Position numbers and translations under genes: made by a program
Part shown: piece by piece, positions 11,462 through 20,125 of the stretch
Position numbering within the stretch: the first letter of the stretch is position 1
Layout of the letters: the number at the start of each line of letters is the position of its first letter
Assembly: GCF_000368865.1 (NCBI RefSeq)
Contig: NZ_KB849726.1
Span: 665,166-729,165, forward strand
Length of the DNA: 64,000 nucleotides
Reading direction: 5' to 3'
Origin: Acinetobacter bouvetii DSM 14964 = CIP 107468
GTDB taxonomy: Bacteria > Pseudomonadota > Gammaproteobacteria > Pseudomonadales > Moraxellaceae
Notes under the pieces: generated by a model
Seen by the model: the letters and a program-made list of their open reading frames with translations, nothing else
What the model was told of the DNA's origin: nothing
Database searches by the model: none

Positions 11462-13495
11462 ATGATTGCATATTCAGTTCGAATTTCGATACTTATCAGC
11501 CTGGCGCTGCTGTTATCAGCGCAAATGCTGTATATCCCTGCACCCTTAACGGCGGTGCTGGGAATCGTTTGGATTTATCTGTTTTACGCGGCAATCAATA
11601 AAAAGCCGCAAATCAAAAAAATATGGACCTTGCTGCTGACGTTGACTGCATTGGCCAGTATTTATTTCAGCTATCAGACCTTTGTTGGAATTGAGCCGGG
11701 TGTTTCAGTTTTAACTACTTTTTTATTTGCAAAAGCGCTTGAAACAAAGACGCGGCGTGATGCTGTTATTCTGTTTAATTTTGCTCTATTTGTCAGTGCC
11801 AGTTCTTTTTTATTCAGTCAGTCTTTTGCTATGGCTGCAGTGGTCTTGCTGAGCTTAATGAGCAATTTTACGGGTCTTTACCGTTTGCAAACTAGCGCGT
11901 TTGAACCTGATCAAAAAGCCTCTTTGCAGAATTTGAAACAAGACCTGAGCCATGTCGGCAAATTTATTGCTTATGCGCTGCCATTTTTTGTTTTGCTGTT
12001 TATGTTTTTTCCGCGTCTGCCGCCGCTGTGGCATATTGCAATTCCGCAGAATAGAGCGGTGACGGGGATCAGTGACAGCATGTCTCCTGGAGATATTGCG
12101 CAGCTTTCACAGTCCAGCGCATTGGCTTTTCGTGTGGTGGCTGATCTCACCCGGCTTCCTGCCCGCTCAGAATTGTATTGGCGCGCTTTGGTTCTGGATG
12201 AGTATGATGGGCTGCGCTGGACCAGCAGCTATAGCAATCAGCAGCTGATTGAGCCGTCAGATATCCAGCAAAAAAAAGCAGGGAGCAAAAAAAAACATCA
12301 GGATAAAGCGGGGCGATTTGAATACCGGTATTTAGCATCAGACCCGCGTGTAAACTGGATCATGGGGCTTGAAAAATCGCTGCCGTTAGAGAGTCAATAT
12401 CAGCTGGGACAAGATTGGCGCATCACGCCGCAGCGGCAAAATATTAAAAATGACCTCATTCAGCTGATGTGGATAGGCGCTGCAGATCTTCATATTGAAA
12501 ATGAAATACAGCGGCAATGGCTGAATAAGCGCAATACGCAAATTGCCGAAAATTATGATTTGAAAGCGCAGCAATTGGCAAAGCAGTTGTATGCACAAAG
12601 CGGCTATAACCCGGAACGCTATATTCAGCATGTGCTGGCTTGGTATAAGCGCAATGGCTTTGCTTATACCTTAAACCCTGGATTTTTGGGTAAAAACCGT
12701 GTAGATGATTTCTTATTTGGTACCCGTAAAGGTTTTTGCGAGCATTATGCATCCAGTTTCGTGATGCTGATGCGCTACGCAGGAATACCTGCCCGTGTAG
12801 TGACAGGCTATCAAGGCGGGCAGCCTGCGCCAGATGGCAAAAGCTGGGAGGTGAGGCAGCTGGACGCGCACGCATGGACAGAAGTGTGGATCAATGATCG
12901 CTGGCAGCGATTTGATCCGACCGCGATTATTGCGCCAAACCGCATAGATATCGGGATGCAAAGTTATATGGAAGAAGATCAGAGTATTTATAATGGCGCT
13001 CACTCAGAGTTGTCATATCGGCAATATGTCATGCTGACTAAACTTCGGATTTGGAGTGATTATGCAAGCTATCAATGGCAGAGTAAAGTTGTGGGCTATA
13101 ATGCGGAATCACAGCAGAATTGGTTTCAAAAAATAGGTTTAAATTCTATATATTCAGGGGTGATCAGCTTAATTGTTGCCACATTATGTTTGATTTTACT
13201 TTATTTTACTTATATTTATTGGCAGGTGAAAAGGAATAAACCTGAGTTGGAGCGTGCAATCGGCCAATTTAATTCTAAACTGCCGTTGGCTTTAAAAAAG
13301 CAAAATGCTGAAACTTTTTCGCTTTGGATGAGCAGGTTGTCGCGGCTGGCTTCAAGTGATGAGCAGGTTCATTTTCAACGCTTGCGACAAAAATTTGAGC
13401 AATATCGGTATATGCCGCATGGACAGCGAAATGTTGAGCTCAAAGAAATAAAGCGCTTGCTTAAATCTTGTGCAAATGCGCTTAAGAAGTTATAA
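11462..13495 (+). CDS. TgpA-like transglutaminase membrane protein
   Basis: A 677-residue inner-membrane protein. About six hydrophobic helices lie in residues 1-190 (DUF3488). A large periplasmic domain follows with the transglutaminase triad: Cys in KGFCEHYASSF, His in DAHAWTEVW and Asp in RFDPTA. A further membrane helix near residue 560 and a cytoplasmic tail complete it. The architecture is that of Pseudomonas TgpA, an essential periplasmic transglutaminase-like protein. All catalytic residues are present. It is the last gene of the moxR operon, with two bases between it and the DUF58 gene. The in vivo substrate is unknown. No clear terminator lies before the tRNA promoter. Confidence 0.9.
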   Translation: MIAYSVRISILISLALLLSAQMLYIPAPLTAVLGIVWIYLFYAAINKKPQIKKIWTLLLTLTALASIYFSYQTFVGIEPGVSVLTTFLFAKALETKTRRDAVILFNFALFVSASSFLFSQSFAMAAVVLLSLMSNFTGLYRLQTSAFEPDQKASLQNLKQDLSHVGKFIAYALPFFVLLFMFFPRLPPLWHIAIPQNRAVTGISDSMSPGDIAQLSQSSALAFRVVADLTRLPARSELYWRALVLDEYDGLRWTSSYSNQQLIEPSDIQQKKAGSKKKHQDKAGRFEYRYLASDPRVNWIMGLEKSLPLESQYQLGQDWRITPQRQNIKNDLIQLMWIGAADLHIENEIQRQWLNKRNTQIAENYDLKAQQLAKQLYAQSGYNPERYIQHVLAWYKRNGFAYTLNPGFLGKNRVDDFLFGTRKGFCEHYASSFVMLMRYAGIPARVVTGYQGGQPAPDGKSWEVRQLDAHAWTEVWINDRWQRFDPTAIIAPNRIDIGMQSYMEEDQSIYNGAHSELSYRQYVMLTKLRIWSDYASYQWQSKVVGYNAESQQNWFQKIGLNSIYSGVISLIVATLCLILLYFTYIYWQVKRNKPELERAIGQFNSKLPLALKKQNAETFSLWMSRLSRLASSDEQVHFQRLRQKFEQYRYMPHGQRNVELKEIKRLLKSCANALKKL

Positions 13496-13501
13496 AACTT
13501 C

Positions 13502-13530
13502 TTGTTTAAGCAAACATAATTGAATATGAT
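13502..13530 (+). promoter_or_regulatory. tRNA-Val promoter
   Basis: TTGTTT (13502-13507), 17-base spacer, TATGAT (13525-13530). The expected start of transcription is about six bases before the tRNA. Confidence 0.6.
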
Positions 13531-13542
13531 TCTACCCATCCT

Positions 13543-13619
13543 AGGTGTATAGCTCAGTTGGTTAGAGCGCTACGTTGACATCGTAGAGGTCTCCAGTTCG
13601 AGTCTGGATATACCTACCA
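13543..13619 (+). tRNA. tRNA-Val (GAC)
   Basis: A 77-base cloverleaf. The acceptor arm AGGTGTA pairs with TATACCT (one G-U), the discriminator is A, and CCA is encoded. The D-arm contains AGCTCAGTTGGTTAGAGC. The anticodon stem CTACG/CGTAG encloses loop TTGACAT, giving anticodon GAC at 13577-13579, which reads GUC and GUU valine codons. The T-arm holds GTTCGAGTC. It is a single-copy unit with its own promoter and terminator. tRNA genes are common phage and island integration sites, but I found no repeat of its 3' end downstream. Confidence 0.97.
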
Positions 13620-13991
13620 AGATATTTCAAAGACTTACAGTTAAAATCAATAACTTGTAAGTCTTTTTTTTTTGCCCGTAATTTGTTGCACTTTTTGGTG
13701 AAAATACGCCAAGACAGCTACGATGAAATTACCTAACGCCCAGAAAAAAAGTGATACTTATCGAATTGAAATTATGTTCGATGGAAAGTGATAGGAGAAT
13801 ATACTTTTACTTTTTTGAAATGCGCGAATGCGTAGAAGCAAAATTTTATAAAAAATTGTGATAGTGTAAAAATTAACATTAACTAACTAGGGTTTAGATT
13901 AAAGAGAGTTAAATAATTTGTATTTTTGTAGATAAAAATAAGTAGCTTAGATACTATTAATCAATATTTAATAATAAGAATGAGGGGATGG
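13620..13991. other. AT-rich spacer after the tRNA
   Basis: Beyond the tRNA terminator (listed separately) this stretch is AT-rich and has no open frame of note and no repeat of the tRNA end. It presumably holds the promoter of the BRCT gene. I see nothing else in it. Confidence 0.5.
13629..13673 (+). terminator. tRNA-Val terminator
   Basis: A 10-11 bp stem AAAGACTTACA with its complement, an AT-rich loop, and a run of ten T residues. Confidence 0.85.
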
Positions 13992-14861
13992 ATGAGCTTA
14001 GATGTGTTTAATGCAAAAGCGAATCAAAATAAATTAGGCAATCTATTTCTAGGCTTTTTCGAAGGGCTTTTTATAGATGGTCGTGTACATATCAAGGAAA
14101 TTGAAGCACTAATCAAATGGGTAGAACACTATCCTCAATCTGTAGATTTGCCTCATTTTGAAACGCTATACAACTTACTGCTAAAAGCAATTGAAGACCC
14201 TGAATTTTTACTTCAAAAGCAGAAAGAAATTTCTGAAATAATGGACAAGTTCAAGTGTTCAGATTACTTCATCAAGAACACGTGTGACATTCAACGATTA
14301 CATGGTCTTATTGCAGGTATTGTTTGTGATCAGACTTTAAATCAAGATGAAATCTTCGCGCTAAATCAATGGTTAAAAGACAACGACCATTTAGAAGAAG
14401 ACCCAATTTATACTGAAATTTACTCAAAACTGAAACCTGTTAGAGTAAACAACGCCGTCGATGACAAAACGATTAACTTGGTACTTTCAACAATTAACCG
14501 TTATGTGAATTATGATAATTTTGGAATCCCAAAGTTGGCCGTATCCAGCTGTGTAGAAGATCAGAATCCTGACTTTTATCATGGCCGATTTGTTTTAGAC
14601 GGCTTTACTTTCTGTTTGACTGGAGCATCTACGCGTAATACGAAAGCTGAGTGGAAGGAAGCCATTGAAGCCAATAATGGCTATTTTACTGATAGCTTAA
14701 CAAAGAAAGTGAATTATCTTGTTATTTGCAATAAAGGAAATCCACATTGGGCGCATATGAGCTATGGTCGGAAGTTTGAACAAGCATTGAAATGGCAGAA
14801 AGAAGGCGAACGAATTAGAATTTTAACTGAAGATGATTTTGTAAAAGTTTTAGAAGGGTAA
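13992..14861 (+). CDS. BRCT-domain protein with TerB-like helical repeats, unknown role
   Basis: A 289-residue protein if begun at ATG 13992 (MSLDVFN); AGGGG lies four bases upstream. The ATG at 13980 gives four more residues. Residues ~199-287 form a BRCT domain: FTFCLTGAS, then GYFTDSLTKKVNYLV, then a KFEQALKW helix and ILTEDDFVKVL, closest in style to the NAD-dependent ligase BRCT. The N-terminal half contains the same helix pattern twice (GLFIDGRVHIKEIEALIKW and GIVCDQTLNQDEIFALNQW). This suggests a duplicated TerB-like or EF-hand-like unit. Such proteins are scattered and usually annotated only as BRCT proteins. The gene is AT-rich, alone, next to a tRNA and flanked by long spacers, which hints at acquisition. 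A role in DNA repair or defence is conjecture. Confidence 0.75.
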   Translation: MSLDVFNAKANQNKLGNLFLGFFEGLFIDGRVHIKEIEALIKWVEHYPQSVDLPHFETLYNLLLKAIEDPEFLLQKQKEISEIMDKFKCSDYFIKNTCDIQRLHGLIAGIVCDQTLNQDEIFALNQWLKDNDHLEEDPIYTEIYSKLKPVRVNNAVDDKTINLVLSTINRYVNYDNFGIPKLAVSSCVEDQNPDFYHGRFVLDGFTFCLTGASTRNTKAEWKEAIEANNGYFTDSLTKKVNYLVICNKGNPHWAHMSYGRKFEQALKWQKEGERIRILTEDDFVKVLEG

Positions 14862-14871
14862 GCGACTGTGA

Positions 14872-14899
14872 GTTGAAAGCTCGTTTTAGAGCTTTCAAC
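14872..14899. terminator. Hairpin between convergent ORFs
   Basis: A perfect 11-bp stem GTTGAAAGCTC / GAGCTTTCAAC around GTTTTA. It lies ten bases after the BRCT stop and immediately before the stop of the small minus-strand ORF. It has no strong T-run on either side, so it may be a weak shared terminator or an RNA-stabilising hairpin. Confidence 0.55.
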
Positions 14900-15070
14900 C
14901 TATACAATATAAAAAATACTGATAGAAACACAGCCATTAAGAATACCCATGAGAAAAGGGTAAATCTGCATTGCTAAGTACCATCGAATCTCTGTGATAA
15001 TTTCGGGAGGCCACCGAATTAGAATACAAAGCATTATAAACGCAATTGTTTCCAAGAAGTTCACTGCCAT
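14900..15070 (-). CDS. Possible small membrane protein of 56 residues
   Basis: The minus strand encodes an uninterrupted 56-residue frame beginning MAVNFLETIAF and ending SISIFYIV. It has two hydrophobic segments, about residues 6-18 and 37-56, separated by a short stretch with charged and proline residues (IRWPPEIITEIRWY). That is a plausible two-helix inner-membrane miniprotein. Its stop codon abuts the hairpin that also follows the convergent BRCT gene, which is the arrangement expected for two real convergent genes. No good ribosome site precedes the ATG, and AT-rich DNA can give chance hydrophobic frames. I could not name a family. Confidence 0.35.
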   Translation of the reverse strand: MAVNFLETIAFIMLCILIRWPPEIITEIRWYLAMQIYPFLMGILNGCVSISIFYIV

Positions 15071-15235
15071 GTAGGCAGCTTAGAAATTTTTAGCTAGGAT
15101 TCTCAACGGTTTAGTTAGGATGGGCATCTATCAGTAAATATTAGCCTTAGATCTCTCATGCTTTCACCATTTAGATAAAATGGATAAGGATGAATATCTT
15201 GAGATTTTCTAAGTTTAAAATGAGTTTCATTCACT

Positions 15236-15279
15236 ATTGCGTATTTTACAGGTTTTAATTGCGTATTTTACAGGTTTTA
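15236..15279. repeat. Tandem 22-base duplication
   Basis: Two exact head-to-tail copies of a 22-base unit starting ATTGCGTATTTTACAGG occupy this stretch with no spacer. It is probably a replication-slippage duplication in non-coding DNA. Confidence 0.8.
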
Positions 15280-15566
15280 TAAAATAACTGCTGTTCTTGC
15301 CTCAATAGCAAAATAAAATGCCTTGGCGATGAATTTTTAAGCCAAATATAGAATTTGATTGAGGCGCTTAACTGTCAAATTTCTAGAGGAATTATTTAGT
15401 CATTGTTCAGTTTTATTTTTATAAGCTGTTGTATTTAATTAATATTAATGAAAATTAGAACAGCATTCTCAATAATTTTCTTTAGGGTTATCAGAATTAA
15501 TGTATCAAAGATCTGCTAGCCAGCTTTCCTAATGAACATCCCGCGTTGATGCGATGAAATCCAATT

Positions 15567-15583
15567 GATGAATTTAATTCATC
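15567..15583. promoter_or_regulatory. MetR-type operator upstream of mesX-mesD
   Basis: GATGAATTTAATTCATC is a perfect palindrome and contains TGAA-N5-TTCA, the consensus for the homocysteine-responsive LysR regulator MetR. Its centre is about 64 bases before the predicted mesX transcription start, a normal activator position. The metR gene itself is not in this window. Confidence 0.6.
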
Positions 15584-15603
15584 TTCACGTTAGATTAAAT
15601 CAT

Positions 15604-15632
15604 TTTTATTCATCTAGTTGTTCGGCTATAAA
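15604..15632 (+). promoter_or_regulatory. Predicted mesX promoter
   Basis: TTTATT (15604-15609), a 17-base spacer and TATAAA (15627-15632). The -35 is weak, as expected for an activator-dependent promoter below the MetR-like site. Confidence 0.5.
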
Positions 15633-15684
15633 TATATGCATTCAGAAATTTTAACTTCTCTCAAAAAATTTAGGGTGCATCACA

Positions 15685-16683
15685 ATGAGTCAGGAATTTA
15701 TTTGTTCGATTAAAAGCGTACGTTTCGATGAAAACTATCAACCTGCTGACAACACACGCCTTACAACAAACTTTGCCAATTTGGCACGTGGTGAACATCG
15801 CCAAGAAAATTTACGCAGAACTTTGGCGATGATTAACAACCGCTTTAACACGTTGGCGAGTTGTGACAATCCAAATGCTGACCGCTATTCACTTGAAATT
15901 GACATCATTTCAGCAGAGCTTGATGTTGAAGGAAATGGCAAGACCTTTCCTTTTATTGAAACCTTGAAAAGTACCATCATTGATCACAAAACTAATGAAC
16001 GCATAGAAGGCATGATCGGCAACAGTTTTTCATCTTATGTGCGTGATTATGATTTCAGTGTGGTATTGCCAGAGCTTGGTTTTAAAACCAATGAAAAGCC
16101 TGAAAACTTTGGTGATTTACATGGCAAGCTCTATCAGCATTTAGTCAACTCAGACGTTTTTAAAGCAGAATTTAAAAAACAACCTGTGATTTGCCTGAGC
16201 GTTTCGACTTCAAAAACCTATTACCGCACAGCGAATATTCACCCGGTGCTTGGTGTGGAATATAAAAATGATGAATATTCACGTACCGATGACTATTTCA
16301 AAAAAATGGGTCTAAGCGTCCGCTATTTCAAACCTGAAAATGCAACAGCGCCATTGGCATTCTATTCAGCAAACAACTTACTGACGGACTATACCGACTT
16401 TGAGTTGATCAGTGCGATCAGCACCATGGAAAGTTTCCAAAAAATTTACCGTCCTGAAATTTACAATACCAATTCAGTTGCAGGTTTGGTTTATCAGCCA
16501 AGCTTGAACTTTCAGGATTTTTCATTGACCCGCATTGTTTATGACCGTGTAGAACGCAGTCAATTGGCGGTAAAACAAGGCAAATGGACGGAAGAAAACT
16601 TTATCAAGCCGTACAAAGACATCCTTGAACAATGGGCTGCAAATTTTGCTGCTGAAAATACAAAGCAAGAACACGCTGCTTGA
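15685..16683 (+). CDS. mesX: MesX (DUF1852), partner of methionine synthase MesD
   Basis: A 332-residue soluble protein matching the DUF1852 family by its start (MSQEFICSIKSVRFDENYQP), its length and its position directly before a core-only methionine synthase. DUF1852 was named MesX after genetic work in Acinetobacter and other aerobes showed that MesD needs it, and oxygen, to make methionine from homocysteine without folate. What MesX does chemically is not known. I see no cofactor motif I can assign. AGGG nine bases upstream supports the ATG. A MetR-type palindrome lies upstream. The mesD start follows 72 bases after the stop, so the two genes are very likely one transcript. Confidence 0.88.
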   Translation: MSQEFICSIKSVRFDENYQPADNTRLTTNFANLARGEHRQENLRRTLAMINNRFNTLASCDNPNADRYSLEIDIISAELDVEGNGKTFPFIETLKSTIIDHKTNERIEGMIGNSFSSYVRDYDFSVVLPELGFKTNEKPENFGDLHGKLYQHLVNSDVFKAEFKKQPVICLSVSTSKTYYRTANIHPVLGVEYKNDEYSRTDDYFKKMGLSVRYFKPENATAPLAFYSANNLLTDYTDFELISAISTMESFQKIYRPEIYNTNSVAGLVYQPSLNFQDFSLTRIVYDRVERSQLAVKQGKWTEENFIKPYKDILEQWAANFAAENTKQEHAA

Positions 16684-16755
16684 TTCACCGAATAGATTAA
16701 AGAACACCGTTTTAAAGCATATCGTTTTACAAAAGATTGAGATAGAAGATTAGAC

Positions 16756-17784
16756 ATGGCCATTTTACTCCCAACATCAACAGCAGGCAGCTTACCGAAA
16801 CCATCTTGGTTGGCAGAACCGGAAAAACTTTGGTCACCTTGGAAACTGGAAGGTGAGCAATTGCTTGAAGCGAAGCAAGATGCTTTGCGTTTATCTTTGC
16901 AAGAACAGCAGCATGCGGGCATCGATATCGTCAGTGACGGTGAACAAACCCGCCAGCATTTCGTAACAACATTCATTGAGCATTTGGATGGTGTTGATTT
17001 CGAAAAGCGTGAAACGGTGCGTATCCGTAACCGTTATGATGCGAGTGTGCCGAGTGTGGTGGGTGCAGTCAGCCGTCAAAAGCCTGTCTTTGTTGAAGAT
17101 GCCAAGTTTTTACGCAGCCAGACTACACAGCCGATTAAATGGGCTTTGCCTGGCCCAATGACCATGATTGATACTTTGTATGACGGTCATTACAAAAGCC
17201 GTGAAAAACTGGCGTGGGAATTTGCCAAAATTCTTAATCAGGAAGCCTTGGAATTAGAAGCCGCCGGTGTAGACATTATCCAGTTTGATGAGCCTGCCTT
17301 TAATGTGTTTTTTGATGAAGTGAATGACTGGGGCGTTGCAACTTTGGAGCGGGCGCTTGAAGGTCTGAAATGTGAAACTGCGGTGCATATCTGCTATGGC
17401 TACGGCATCAAAGCCAATACAGACTGGAAAAAGACCTTAGGTTCAGAATGGCGCCAATACGAAGAAGCCTTCCCTAAACTGCAGCAATCCAAGATTGATA
17501 TCATTTCACTTGAATGTCAAAATTCACGTGTGCCTATGGATTTGATTGAACTGATTCGCGGTAAAAAAGTTATGGTCGGTGCAATTGACGTTGCAACTAA
17601 TCAGATTGAAACTGCGGAAGAAGTGGCCAATACATTGCGCAAAGCGCTTCAGTTTGTCGATGCCGATAAGCTTTATCCTTCGACCAACTGCGGTATGGCG
17701 CCATTGTCACGCGAAGTGGCGAGAGGCAAACTGAATGCCTTGAGTGCGGGCGCAGAAATTATTCGTCAAGAACTGACCGCCTAA
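16756..17784 (+). CDS. mesD: Folate-independent methionine synthase MesD (MetE core)
   Basis: A 342-residue protein equivalent to only the catalytic C-terminal barrel of MetE; the folate-binding N-terminal half of the ~750-residue enzyme is absent. Zinc-site motifs are visible: His and Cys in HICYGYG, Glu and Cys around SLECQNSR, and Cys in NCGMAPL. IIQFDEPAFNVF forms part of the homocysteine site. MesD transfers a methyl group to homocysteine from an unidentified non-folate donor and depends on MesX and oxygen. The gene lies just downstream of mesX, with the flavin reductase and TauE-like genes after it in the same direction. A family assignment as a short MetE-like protein is certain; the MesD subtype follows from the MesX neighbour. 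Confidence 0.9.
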   Translation: MAILLPTSTAGSLPKPSWLAEPEKLWSPWKLEGEQLLEAKQDALRLSLQEQQHAGIDIVSDGEQTRQHFVTTFIEHLDGVDFEKRETVRIRNRYDASVPSVVGAVSRQKPVFVEDAKFLRSQTTQPIKWALPGPMTMIDTLYDGHYKSREKLAWEFAKILNQEALELEAAGVDIIQFDEPAFNVFFDEVNDWGVATLERALEGLKCETAVHICYGYGIKANTDWKKTLGSEWRQYEEAFPKLQQSKIDIISLECQNSRVPMDLIELIRGKKVMVGAIDVATNQIETAEEVANTLRKALQFVDADKLYPSTNCGMAPLSREVARGKLNALSAGAEIIRQELTA

Positions 17785-17860
17785 CTTTATGCTGAGTACG
17801 CATCATCCTTAAAATGCGCAGGGTTATATTGGATTTGATTAAATTTCACAGTAACCCTGA

Positions 17861-17874
17861 CTTCAAACTTGAAG
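17861..17874. promoter_or_regulatory. Inverted repeat upstream of flavin reductase
   Basis: CTTCAA-AC-TTGAAG is a perfect 6-2-6 inverted repeat about 110 bases before the flavin reductase start. An 11-base direct repeat TCAGGTGATAT (17902 and 17936) lies between it and the gene. Either could bind a regulator; neither is assigned. Confidence 0.3.
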
Positions 17875-17981
17875 TTGCCTCATTTTCTACTCGGAACACA
17901 TTCAGGTGATATGCCTGTGTGATGAACTTGCATAATCAGGTGATATCACAAAAAACGACGCTTTAATTTTGGAACAGCATC

Positions 17982-18473
17982 ATGATTCAATCAACAGACT
18001 TTAAAAACGCAATGTCTTTGCTCACCAGCGCAGTCAATGTTGTGACGACAGCAGGAATGTCTGGCCGCTATGGATTCACTGCCTCTGCTGTGTGCAGTGT
18101 TACCGATACGCCGCCGACCTTGCTGGTCTGTATGAATCAAGCATCGAGTTCCCATGCACATTTTATTGAAAATAAAATTCTCACCGTGAATGTTTTGGGT
18201 GCACAGCATGAAGACCTGTCCAAAGCATTTTCATCGAAAATGACGGCTGAAGAGCGCTTTAACCATGCCGCTTGGACTGAATTAGAAACAGGTGCGCCTA
18301 TTTTAAAGGATGCTTTGGTGAGTTTTGACTGTCAGATTGAGCAAATTCAAGCAGTCGGCACACATAGTGTTTTTATGTGCCGTGTGGTCGCAATTCAGCA
18401 AAGTCAACAGGATGAAAGTTTGGTGTATTTCAATCGCGCTTACCATTCGGTAGGTCAAGTGGAAATCGCCTAA
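17982..18473 (+). CDS. Flavin reductase (RutF/HpaC-like, FMN-binding)
   Basis: A 163-residue protein of the flavin reductase-like split-barrel family. It starts FKNAMSLLTSAVNVVTT, has the GFTASAVCSVTDTPPTLLVCMN motif that binds flavin phosphate and ring, and ends with YHSVGQV in place of the usual YH-x-Y/L end. These enzymes reduce FMN or FAD with NAD(P)H and hand the free reduced flavin to a monooxygenase. No two-component monooxygenase gene is adjacent. The nearest oxygen-dependent system is MesX/MesD, so it may supply reductant there. GGA eight bases upstream supports the ATG. About 200 bases separate it from mesD, so it may have its own promoter. Confidence 0.85.
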   Translation: MIQSTDFKNAMSLLTSAVNVVTTAGMSGRYGFTASAVCSVTDTPPTLLVCMNQASSSHAHFIENKILTVNVLGAQHEDLSKAFSSKMTAEERFNHAAWTELETGAPILKDALVSFDCQIEQIQAVGTHSVFMCRVVAIQQSQQDESLVYFNRAYHSVGQVEIA

Positions 18474-18517
18474 ACGCATTTTGTTCAATATCAAATTCTT
18501 TAATAAGTAAGTATGCC

Positions 18518-19330
18518 GTGGAATTAATTATTTTTTTAGCAATAGGGGCATTGGCGGGATTTGCTGCTGGGCTCTTTGGTGTGGGCGGCGGACTGATCAT
18601 CGTGCCGCTTTTGTATGTGGTGTTTACACAGATGGGCTATGGTCCCGAAATTGTGATGCATTTAGCTTTAGGCACTTCGCTCGCAACGATTATCGTGACC
18701 TCGATCAGTTCATTGATGGCACATAATAAAAACGGCGCCGTACTTTGGCCGGTATTCAAAAATTTAACGCCGGGTTTGGCGGTGGGTTCATTTTTAGGAG
18801 CGGGTATTGCAGGATTGCTGTCGAGTGCGAAGCTGCAGCTAATTATCGGCATATTCGCCCTTTGGGTGGCATATGGCATGTTCATGGGTGCCAAAAAAAT
18901 GGTCGAGCAGATTCGAGTCCTGCCTTCAGCAGCGAAGCAAGTCTGTGCCGGTACAGGAATTGGCATTGCATCTGCCATTTTTGGCATCGGCGGCGGCAGT
19001 TTAACGGTGCCTTATCTCAATCATTATGGCGTGCGCATGCAAAAAGCTGTTGGCACATCAGCCGCATGCGGCTTATCCATAGCAATTGCCGGAGCAGCGG
19101 GCTTTATGTTTTTTGGCGCGCAAGAGAAAGTTGAGATCGCAAACAGTATTGGCTATGTTCATATTTATGCGTTCTTAGGGATTAGCAGCATGAGTTTCTT
19201 TACGGCAAAGTTAGGCGCTAAAGCGGCACATGCGCTATCACCGCAAATGCTGAAAAAATGTTTTGCGGGTTTATTAACTGCAGTCGGCTGCTACTTTATC
19301 TTTCAAGGCGTGCTGACGGTGAGCGTATAG
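18518..19330 (+). CDS. TauE/SafE family sulfite/organosulfur permease
   Basis: A 270-residue inner-membrane protein with about eight hydrophobic helices and the duplicated TauE/SafE glycine motif: GLFGVGGGLIIVPLL near residue 18 and AIFGIGGGSLTVPYL near residue 154. The family exports or imports sulfite, sulfoacetate or related anions. The start is GTG; the nearby ATG at 18513 is out of frame. It follows the flavin reductase by 44 bases and is probably co-transcribed. With mesX-mesD it suggests sulfur metabolism, though the family also occurs outside it. The substrate cannot be read from sequence. Confidence 0.85.
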   Translation: MELIIFLAIGALAGFAAGLFGVGGGLIIVPLLYVVFTQMGYGPEIVMHLALGTSLATIIVTSISSLMAHNKNGAVLWPVFKNLTPGLAVGSFLGAGIAGLLSSAKLQLIIGIFALWVAYGMFMGAKKMVEQIRVLPSAAKQVCAGTGIGIASAIFGIGGGSLTVPYLNHYGVRMQKAVGTSAACGLSIAIAGAAGFMFFGAQEKVEIANSIGYVHIYAFLGISSMSFFTAKLGAKAAHALSPQMLKKCFAGLLTAVGCYFIFQGVLTVSV

Positions 19331-19663
19331 AAGCAATAACCCTAAGGGAGAACAGCCTTAGCGCCAAGTTTAGCCGCCTGTAAAAGCAGATTGGCGCTTT
19401 GCGCACAGTAAAGTGGTTCATTTATCATTATTGCCATAAGCTTGAGGCATTGTGCAGGCGTCATTGCGAGAAATCCTGCTTCAGCATACAGCGTGCGAAA
19501 AAATATTCTGATAGAGCGCGCTGTATTTCTAATGCTTCTAAGGCAGGCTTTAGCAACGTTATTAAGCCGTTCTTAGCCATCATGGCCAATTCAATTAAAT
19601 TTTCAGGAACTGCTCATTTTGTGGTCGAAAAATAAGTTGTGATCGGTGTGCTTTACGGCTTTA
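19331..19663. other. Spacer between tauE-like and UPF0756 genes
   Basis: No confident gene. The minus strand holds two short ATGA-coupled ORFs (listed separately) that could be small genes or the decayed remains of one. The plus-strand 78-codon frame over the same DNA has no ribosome site and no family likeness. Confidence 0.5.
19342..19583 (-). other. Two ATGA-coupled 40-codon ORFs, or a frameshifted remnant
   Basis: On the minus strand a 40-residue frame (MMAKNGLITLLKPALEAL start) ends in TGA at 19461. A second 40-residue frame (MTPAQCLKLMAIM start, ending KLGAKAVLP) begins in the overlapping ATGA and stops at 19342. Both have ordinary amphipathic composition. ATGA overlap is typical of coupled genes, but a single base slip in one ~80-residue protein would look the same. 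There is no recognisable family and no clear ribosome site. Confidence 0.25.
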
Positions 19664-20125
19664 TTATTGCCCTGAACCAATCAGTAGAGATAATATTCCG
19701 GCAGCAATCAAAGGGCCGACAGGTACGCCGCGCAATACGGCTACGCCAGCCACTGTGCCAATCAGCAAGCCCGCCACAATATCAGGCTGATTTGACATCA
19801 GCTTCACGCCGCGTCCGCCCAGCCAAGCCACCAATAAGCCAATAGCAATAGCCAGCAGCGACTTCCAGCTGAGAAAGGATTTCAATATGGCGTCACCTGG
19901 GATTTTGCCGCTGGCAATGGGGGTGAGCACGCCAATGGTTAAAATAATGATGCCAATATTTAAGCCATGCTGCTGCAGATAAGGGAAAAATTCATTTAAA
20001 GGGGTGATGCGGAACACGATCAGCACCCCCGCGGCAATGGATACGGCAGAATTATGGCTGAATATCCCGCAGGCCAATAAAATCAATAGAACAATCAGGT
20101 TTAAATCCAGGCTGGACAGGTTCAT
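19664..20125 (-). CDS. UPF0756 (DUF441) membrane protein, YeaL-like
   Basis: A small integral inner-membrane protein with about four or five helices, very like E. coli YeaL. Shared stretches are [39 protein letters not shown] and [12 protein letters not shown]. The function of the family is unknown. I start at [14 protein letters not shown] (153 residues), which matches the family N-terminus. A longer frame reaches upstream, but a TATAAT on the minus strand (20157-20162) falls inside it, so transcription probably begins after that. The ATG at 20146 is a possible alternative seven residues longer. The gene stands alone between plus-strand genes. Confidence 0.85.

Follow-up and report, generated by a model that had tools for sequence, protein, structure and literature searches.

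The mesXD locus

The DNA analysed here, a stretch of 64,000 nucleotides from Acinetobacter bouvetii DSM 14964 (the window), carries a locus for methionine synthesis in which a core methionine synthase, MesD, is paired with its required partner, MesX. Four genes lie there in one direction on the plus strand. The first, mesX (15685-16683), encodes a putative oxygenase that is matched by PF08908 (formerly DUF1852) over residues 1-323 of 323, with 544.7 bits against a cut-off of 25 bits; the present Pfam name of this family is 'Putative oxygenase MesX'. The second, mesD (16756-17784), specifies a protein of 342 residues, which scores 707.5 bits with the NCBIfam model NF006589 'methionine synthase' (cut-off 392) and 135.9 bits, above the Pfam cut-off, with PF01717 (Meth_synt_2). 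The folate domain PF08267 reaches 20.4 bits in MesD, under its cut-off of 27, so a full N-terminal folate domain is absent. The two accessory genes that follow encode a flavin reductase (17982-18473; PF01613 Flavin_Reduct, 132.6 bits) and a permease of the TauE/TSUP type (18518-19330, with a GTG start as called), which scores 170.6 bits with PF01925 (TauE; cut-off 32.6) in a match over nearly the whole length. Gaps of 72 bp, 197 bp and 44 bp separate MesX from MesD, MesD from the reductase, and the reductase from the permease, respectively. A MetR-type palindrome, ATGAA-TTTAA-TTCAT, is present at 15568-15582, about 116 bp 5' of the mesX ATG, and corresponds to the consensus given in passages of Leyn et al. 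(2014). A sequence-only reading of this DNA had named the four genes at this place, and both Pfam and NCBIfam agree with it.

The reductase scores 217.4 bits with the NCBIfam model of RutF (cut-off 254.75), its closest, and 169.2 bits with that of HpaC (cut-off 205.95). Because it falls below both cut-offs, it is regarded as a relative of the two-component reductases and filed as neither. Its best solved relative is 2r0x, 'Possible flavin reductase' (E 2.8e-56).

The locus belongs to a system that is already known, and its helper genes are optional. According to passages of Price et al. (2021; PMC7857596), MesD requires MesX and oxygen, and neither MetF nor cobalamin; mesX and mesD together (mesXD) restore E. 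coli ΔmetE or ΔmetF strains aerobically, and the rescue of ΔmetE was seen in minimal medium, M9 glucose. Since MesX and MesD alone rescue E. coli, a dedicated reductase or permease is not required. (E. coli encodes its own PF01613 protein, found as a control of the profile search, so this rescue does not show that flavin is unneeded.) The MesD/MesX route lets aerobes make methionine without vitamin B12.

Profile searches of the host genome found a full-length MetH and no MetE above cut-off; MesD/MesX would therefore be the only methionine synthase found in this host to work without B12. Among other genomes with MesX, G228 has both MetE and MetH, and G342 and G348 have MetH only. In G371 MetE is not above cut-off and MetH has no match at all, which leaves MesD as the sole synthase found; the reductase and TauE genes of this genome sit on contigs other than that of mesXD.

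Constant and optional genes beside mesX

The spread of mesX was followed in several samples. Of 398 genomes of the phylum, 44 match PF08908 (the genome of the window is one of them), as do 3 of 289 genomes of the class of G277 (probably Alphaproteobacteria), two of which were already in the phylum sample. These samples give 45 MesX genomes, 43 of them outside Moraxellaceae; the 24 matching genomes of a second phylum sample were all in the first set already. Outside the phylum, the comparison of mesX covers two Rhodococcus plasmid records only. For Moraxellaceae, synteny was read from the best 80 of 284 relatives (Acinetobacter, Psychrobacter), which are the closest ones and include several from one species. 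A further set of 15 records was picked for variety from the hits in a plasmid collection (its A. baumannii record is 1.0 Mb long). The loci nearest to the window's mesX are those of Acinetobacter, and the gene order of the window recurs in Acinetobacter and Psychrobacter.

A mesD match lies close to mesX in all 43 MesX genomes outside Moraxellaceae. Every Moraxellaceae locus that could be read, 78 of 78, has the reductase after mesXD; in the other 2 of the 80 the contig ends too early. In the plasmid records, as read from incomplete gene tables and an open reading frame (ORF) search, the reductase lies next to mesD in two, those of A. baumannii and A. lwoffii, and in 0 of 13 others; an Agrobacterium record has a reductase farther away, beside a luciferase-like monooxygenase. 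Two of the 43 genomes outside Moraxellaceae, G228 and G342, gave no PF01613 match in a profile search of the genome, and G348 has PF01613 only as a fragment below cut-off with a stop codon. The survey thus divides a constant part of the system, MesX and MesD, from an optional part, the reductase and the permease, and this division directs the search for the chemistry to MesX itself.

The permease recurs beside mesXD without being a fixed part of the locus. A TauE match lies behind the reductase in 48 of the 80 Moraxellaceae loci, some of these matches being broken or ended by a contig edge. In 8 of the 43 genomes outside this family TauE is the immediate neighbour of mesXD, where 0.098 would be expected under a simple model (per-genome TauE counts, 0.93 genes per kb assumed). 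These eight genomes fall into two lineages. One comprises five of the seven MesX genomes of a single genus, called Vibrio-like because Vibrio pelagius groups with its members in the tree, and there TauE lies 5' of mesX in divergent orientation. The other comprises three genomes of two families (2 of 8 and 1 of 1), in which TauE follows mesD in convergent orientation. Counted by family, the same model puts the chance of at least two being TauE-linked at about 6e-4. Among the plasmid records, TauE appears as an ORF of 189 residues divergent from mesX in V. pelagius and as a short match in A. lwoffii; no permease adjoins mesXD in the A. baumannii record.

In a tree of 69 TauE proteins (60 from among the matches listed and nine from other loci), the mesXD-linked proteins from Moraxellaceae and from these two lineages form three distinct clades, whose support is 97/94, 100/100 and 100/100 and which are interspersed with unlinked TauEs. 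One of these clades also contains relatives that are not linked to mesXD; the tree has several long branches and uncertain deep forks. These separate clades beside mesXD make the permease look like a repeated, independent recruit. Passages of two papers tie members of the TSUP family to the uptake of sulfate (PMC11535334) and of alpha-ketobutyrate (PMC12671195). Because the substrates of this family vary, the label of sulfur transporter is unsafe for the permease; its recurrence beside mesXD hints at a class of substrate or by-product.

A MetR-type box and a MetR-like regulator

In the passages concerned, Leyn et al. (2014; PMC4239095) assign PF08908-metE2 to MetR regulons, report no MetR in Moraxellaceae, and describe MetR as activating with homocysteine. 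What is new here is a conserved MetR-type box 5' of mesX in Moraxellaceae, together with a MetR-like regulator. Among 84 Moraxellaceae mesX upstream regions, which are related rather than independent (L146 is the same contig as L055), 77 match at least seven of the eight half-site positions, 16.5 being expected from shuffles; the site is perfect in 43 (0.8 expected) and has seven matches in 34 (15.7 expected), and most of these boxes sit at -113 to -118. In 55 other regions, which include A. venetianus and leave out two loci without the anchor motif, at least seven positions are matched in 38 (6.3 expected), with eight in 11 (0.3) and seven in 27 (6.0), at varied positions. When near-copies were removed, leaving 49 non-redundant Acinetobacter/Psychrobacter regions of 81, the half-site information was 1.74 bits, as against 0.76 (maximum 0.92) in equally treated shuffles and 0.67 in the flanks.

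The box also occurs elsewhere. The host genome has 19 perfect copies, compared with 4 of the reversed pattern. Fifteen of the 19 were inspected by eye, and besides mesX one has a methionine link, being about 350 bp 5' of a metK-like ORF; the others inspected, judged by eye with no family search, are in or near ORFs without an evident methionine role. A MetR-like gene is present in 32 of 41 Moraxellaceae genomes (E up to 1e-40), and its own promoter carries a box with seven or eight matches in 9 of the 11 cases, of 30, that were readable by script (L280 and Moraxellaceae genomes), 1.7 being expected. In addition, a box with one half-site mismatch is found in the divergent gap between mesX and TauE, at a distance of 67-136 bp from the called start of the TauE ORF, in 6 of 6 loci (the five Vibrio-like genomes and V. 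pelagius).

Since MetR activates with homocysteine, MetH that is supplied with B12 would lower the signal, which fits the B12 repression that has been published. In passages of an RNA sequencing study of A. baumannii AB5075 (PMC12892962), the log2 change on addition of B12 is -8.33 for mesX and -2.52 for the reductase ABUW_3196, and sulfonate genes go up. MetR acting on mesX in Moraxellaceae would thus be a testable account of this response.

Two other candidates were tried and rejected. Rfam searches over 13400-19700, at gathering scores or with E up to 1, gave only a tRNA and one CRISPR repeat, and riboswitch control of mesX was set aside for want of a riboswitch match in that interval. LysR genes occur in 18 of 55 mesXD neighbourhoods; because their positions are scattered, they are not counted as linked. 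Three of the five LysR neighbours that were tested are MetR-like (196-212 bits), and those of A. baumannii and Rhodococcus are not.

The MesX protein

MesX is 57-90% identical to the proteins compared; beyond the Acinetobacter/Psychrobacter group nearest to it the range is 57-67%, which also covers A. baumannii and A. venetianus. Across 36 aligned sequences 93 columns are invariant, and His146, His186 and Cys170 belong to these. Two AlphaFold models reach a predicted local distance difference test score of 78 and 79 and a predicted template modelling score of 0.81 and 0.82, and their secondary structure agrees; as their alignments overlap, they are not independent.

Searches for distant sequence homology to solved structures gave nothing useful (best E 1.1 and 0.48). 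With Foldseek, the best E was 0.17 for the first model against the Protein Data Bank and 0.05 for the second against viral models. In VIA-align, the first model retrieves GNAT-type acetyltransferases in all of its eight top rows, the best being 8iym_B with a Z of 4.0, which is below the trust level (root-mean-square deviation 4.9, 124 residues aligned). The second model gives 1xeb_A, likewise with a Z of 4.0 below that level (deviation 5.1, 113 aligned), and its top rows are mixed: besides the acetyltransferases 1xeb, 2wpw (3.5) and 1m1d (3.3) they hold SMC heads, a pre-ribosome chain and an antizyme. A GNAT core in MesX is only a hint from these models. The order of strands and helices may resemble that of the GNAT fold. 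A literature search covering neither subscription papers nor preprints, in which TauE and MesX were not searched jointly, found none on MesX biochemistry or on a link between TauE and mesXD among the papers listed.

Proposed mechanism and its alternatives

The interpretation that is favoured, with modest confidence, is that of a MesD/MesX locus in which the reductase provides flavin for MesX and is replaceable, the TSUP permease is optional, and control is of the MetR type. Such a locus would convert homocysteine to methionine with the help of oxygen and independently of cobalamin and folate. MesD holds the catalytic domain, and MesX would make or carry the methyl group in a step that depends on oxygen, as has been proposed in print. 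The most likely role of the reductase in Moraxellaceae is to provide the MesX step with reduced flavin, a task that other reductases of the cell can take over. For the permease, the most likely cargo is a small anion of this metabolic branch, which could be a by-product or a source of sulfur for homocysteine. A homocysteine-sensing regulator of the MetR type probably activates transcription, and B12 would turn the locus off by way of MetH, which consumes homocysteine. What the genes are, how they are arranged and distributed, that the box is conserved and that a MetR-like gene is present are results of the present analysis; for relatives, published passages report that MesX and oxygen are needed, that the pair suffices in E. 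coli and that B12 represses. From these we infer the transfer of flavin to MesX, the role of the permease and MetR control in Moraxellaceae.

Several observations weigh against this interpretation. A PF01613 reductase adjoins mesXD in only one of the 43 MesX genomes outside Moraxellaceae (G316; 0.047 expected), and the 197-bp gap in front of the window's reductase could hold a separate promoter. The permease was not found in 28 of the 80 Moraxellaceae loci in spite of more than 3 kb of downstream sequence (4 of the 80 are too short), and 35 of the 43 other genomes have no TauE at the immediate mesXD flank. No box with at least seven matches is present in 17 of the 55 upstream regions from other genomes. 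The MetR-like LysR protein of the host, at 250 bits with NF011950 (the next LysR has 68), is below the curated cut-off of 382. Finally, flavin binding by MesX is a prediction, and no solved structure, whether of a flavoenzyme or not, was matched with confidence by either model, VIA-align giving no Z of 5 or more.

The idea that reduced flavin feeds MesX was part of the sequence-only reading. It is not new, because passages of Price et al. (2021) already note that mesX and mesD are often close to a putative flavin reductase and predict from this a redox reaction of MesX with a flavin cofactor. The idea remains plausible in view of the Moraxellaceae synteny and of the joint repression by B12 in A. 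baumannii (as given in parts of that study); however, the lack of linkage outside Moraxellaceae does not favour it. In a first alternative, MesX uses no flavin and is a new oxygen- or peroxide-dependent enzyme, for which a metal enzyme is one example; the reductase would then be a chance neighbour or have another substrate. The two MesX genomes without any PF01613 match speak for it, as does a predicted structure with no confident known fold and only weak GNAT-type hits (Z about 4); His146 and His186, with several invariant acids, would permit a putative metal site. The synteny of the reductase, seen in Moraxellaceae and, by passages of Price et al., in Sphingomonas koreensis, points the other way, and the reductase counts cover the family PF01613 only. 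A flavin-free MesX is possible, if on the unlikely side.

In a second alternative, what unites the reductase and the permease with mesXD is no more than a shared methionine/sulfur regulon: the permease would import sulfate, sulfite or a small organic acid for homocysteine, unrelated to the MesX reaction, and the reductase would serve other monooxygenases. This is in keeping with the TSUP substrates noted above from parts of two papers, with TauE clades that do not form one orthologous group, and with the box before TauE in all six loci of the Vibrio-like lineage. It accords poorly with a reductase tied to mesXD in every readable Moraxellaceae locus and with the fall of the reductase together with mesX on B12 while, in the same passages of PMC12892962, sulfonate genes rise. 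Such a regulon is deemed unlikely as the explanation of both genes. That the four genes are one complete system, with reductase and permease integral and the permease moving a sulfur by-product or substrate of MesX, as the sequence-only reading had proposed, is hardly tenable: its tight co-directional order in the window, the permease after the reductase in 48 of 80 Moraxellaceae loci and TauE near mesXD in two further lineages are outweighed by the single reductase flank among the 43 other genomes, the missing PF01613 match in G228 and G342, the sufficiency of MesX and MesD in E. coli on M9 glucose (passages of Price et al.), and a permease that adjoins neither in the A. baumannii record nor in 28 Moraxellaceae loci with enough sequence. 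The synteny check, set beforehand, likewise found a reductase not conserved outside Moraxellaceae and a permease without linkage in most genomes.

A bolder version of the favoured mechanism can be imagined and is a long shot. MesX would be an enzyme of a new type of structure, possibly built around a GNAT-like core, in which reduced flavin and oxygen serve to cut a C-C bond of a common metabolite (e.g. an acyl-CoA or a 2-oxo acid); the methyl group would pass to MesD, and a small anion would be released. To move this anion, three or more lineages would each have acquired a TSUP permease on their own. Most worth following up are the MetR box and the repeated linkage of the permease.

Other features and copies of mesX

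The 820-bp ORF-poor gap 5' of mesX holds a perfect 22-bp tandem duplication (15236-15279). A single CRISPR direct repeat, presumably type I-F-like, is present at 15059-15086, 600 bp 5' of mesX (Rfam CRISPR-DR4, 41.6 bits); a search of the window (up to 3 mismatches) and of 313 loci gave no second copy in the window and, in the loci, only copies of the same place.

An MTHFR-like protein with DUF5981 is encoded close to mesX on an A. lwoffii plasmid (L165 3549-4940). DUF5981 matches are also close to mesX in two genomes of one genus (G046 C1:1306978 and G354 C2:802011), and the window's genome has one away from mesX (G000 C3:156204). As a partner of mesXD this protein was rejected: PF12225 is present in at least 3 of the 44 MesX genomes of the 398, only part of the candidates having been scored in many. 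It may be, as a guess, of the same kind as ACIAD1783, which passages of Price et al. (2021) describe as distantly related to MetF, with no function assigned.

Several mesX copies lie on mobile or broken DNA. The A. lwoffii plasmid pALWED3.6 (L165) has mesX, mesD, the reductase and a short TauE match, with an IS3 transposase behind and an AbiTii-domain protein 5' of mesX; many A. lwoffii plasmids have two mesX places. On a Pantoea piersonii plasmid (NZ_CP115896.1, 238487-240241) the mesX match is split in two, with an IS1A transposase under the match. One genome has a second mesX in fragments with a stop codon (L155; G082 C1:2175963-2176446) in addition to an intact copy. Phage and viral collections yielded mesX in two phage-labelled records and, among viral contigs, none with a first query and two IMG/VR contigs with a second. 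The two 'Acinetobacter phage' records, CAKLQH020000007.1 and CAKLQF020000011.1 (more than 130 kb), hold an A. baumannii-like mesX that is 66% identical to the query and is possibly host DNA.

Comparison with known systems

The closest known systems are the MesD/MesX pairs of A. baylyi (ACIAD3523/ACIAD3524) and S. koreensis, which belong to the same two families as those of the window and have a flavin reductase close by in both species; by the genetics in passages of Price et al. they are oxygen-dependent and independent of B12 and MetF. The window adds to this a TSUP permease after the reductase. The identity of its MesX is 72-91% to the proteins of the 80 closest Acinetobacter/Psychrobacter loci and about 66% to those of the A. 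baumannii records. The reductase shares the PF01613 family and the size of the two-component reductases RutF and HpaC (217 and 169 bits), but it is under both curated cut-offs and has no known monooxygenase adjoining. The permease shares PF01925 with the TSUP members TauE, SafE, KbuT and the sulfate-uptake homologue TK06_RS10770; by clade, however, it groups with the other mesXD-linked permeases of Moraxellaceae. With the MetR regulon PF08908-metE2, as set out in parts of Leyn et al. (2014), the window has in common the box ATGAA-N5-TTCAT 5' of mesX, and, unlike in that account, the Moraxellaceae here have both a MetR-like gene and the boxes.

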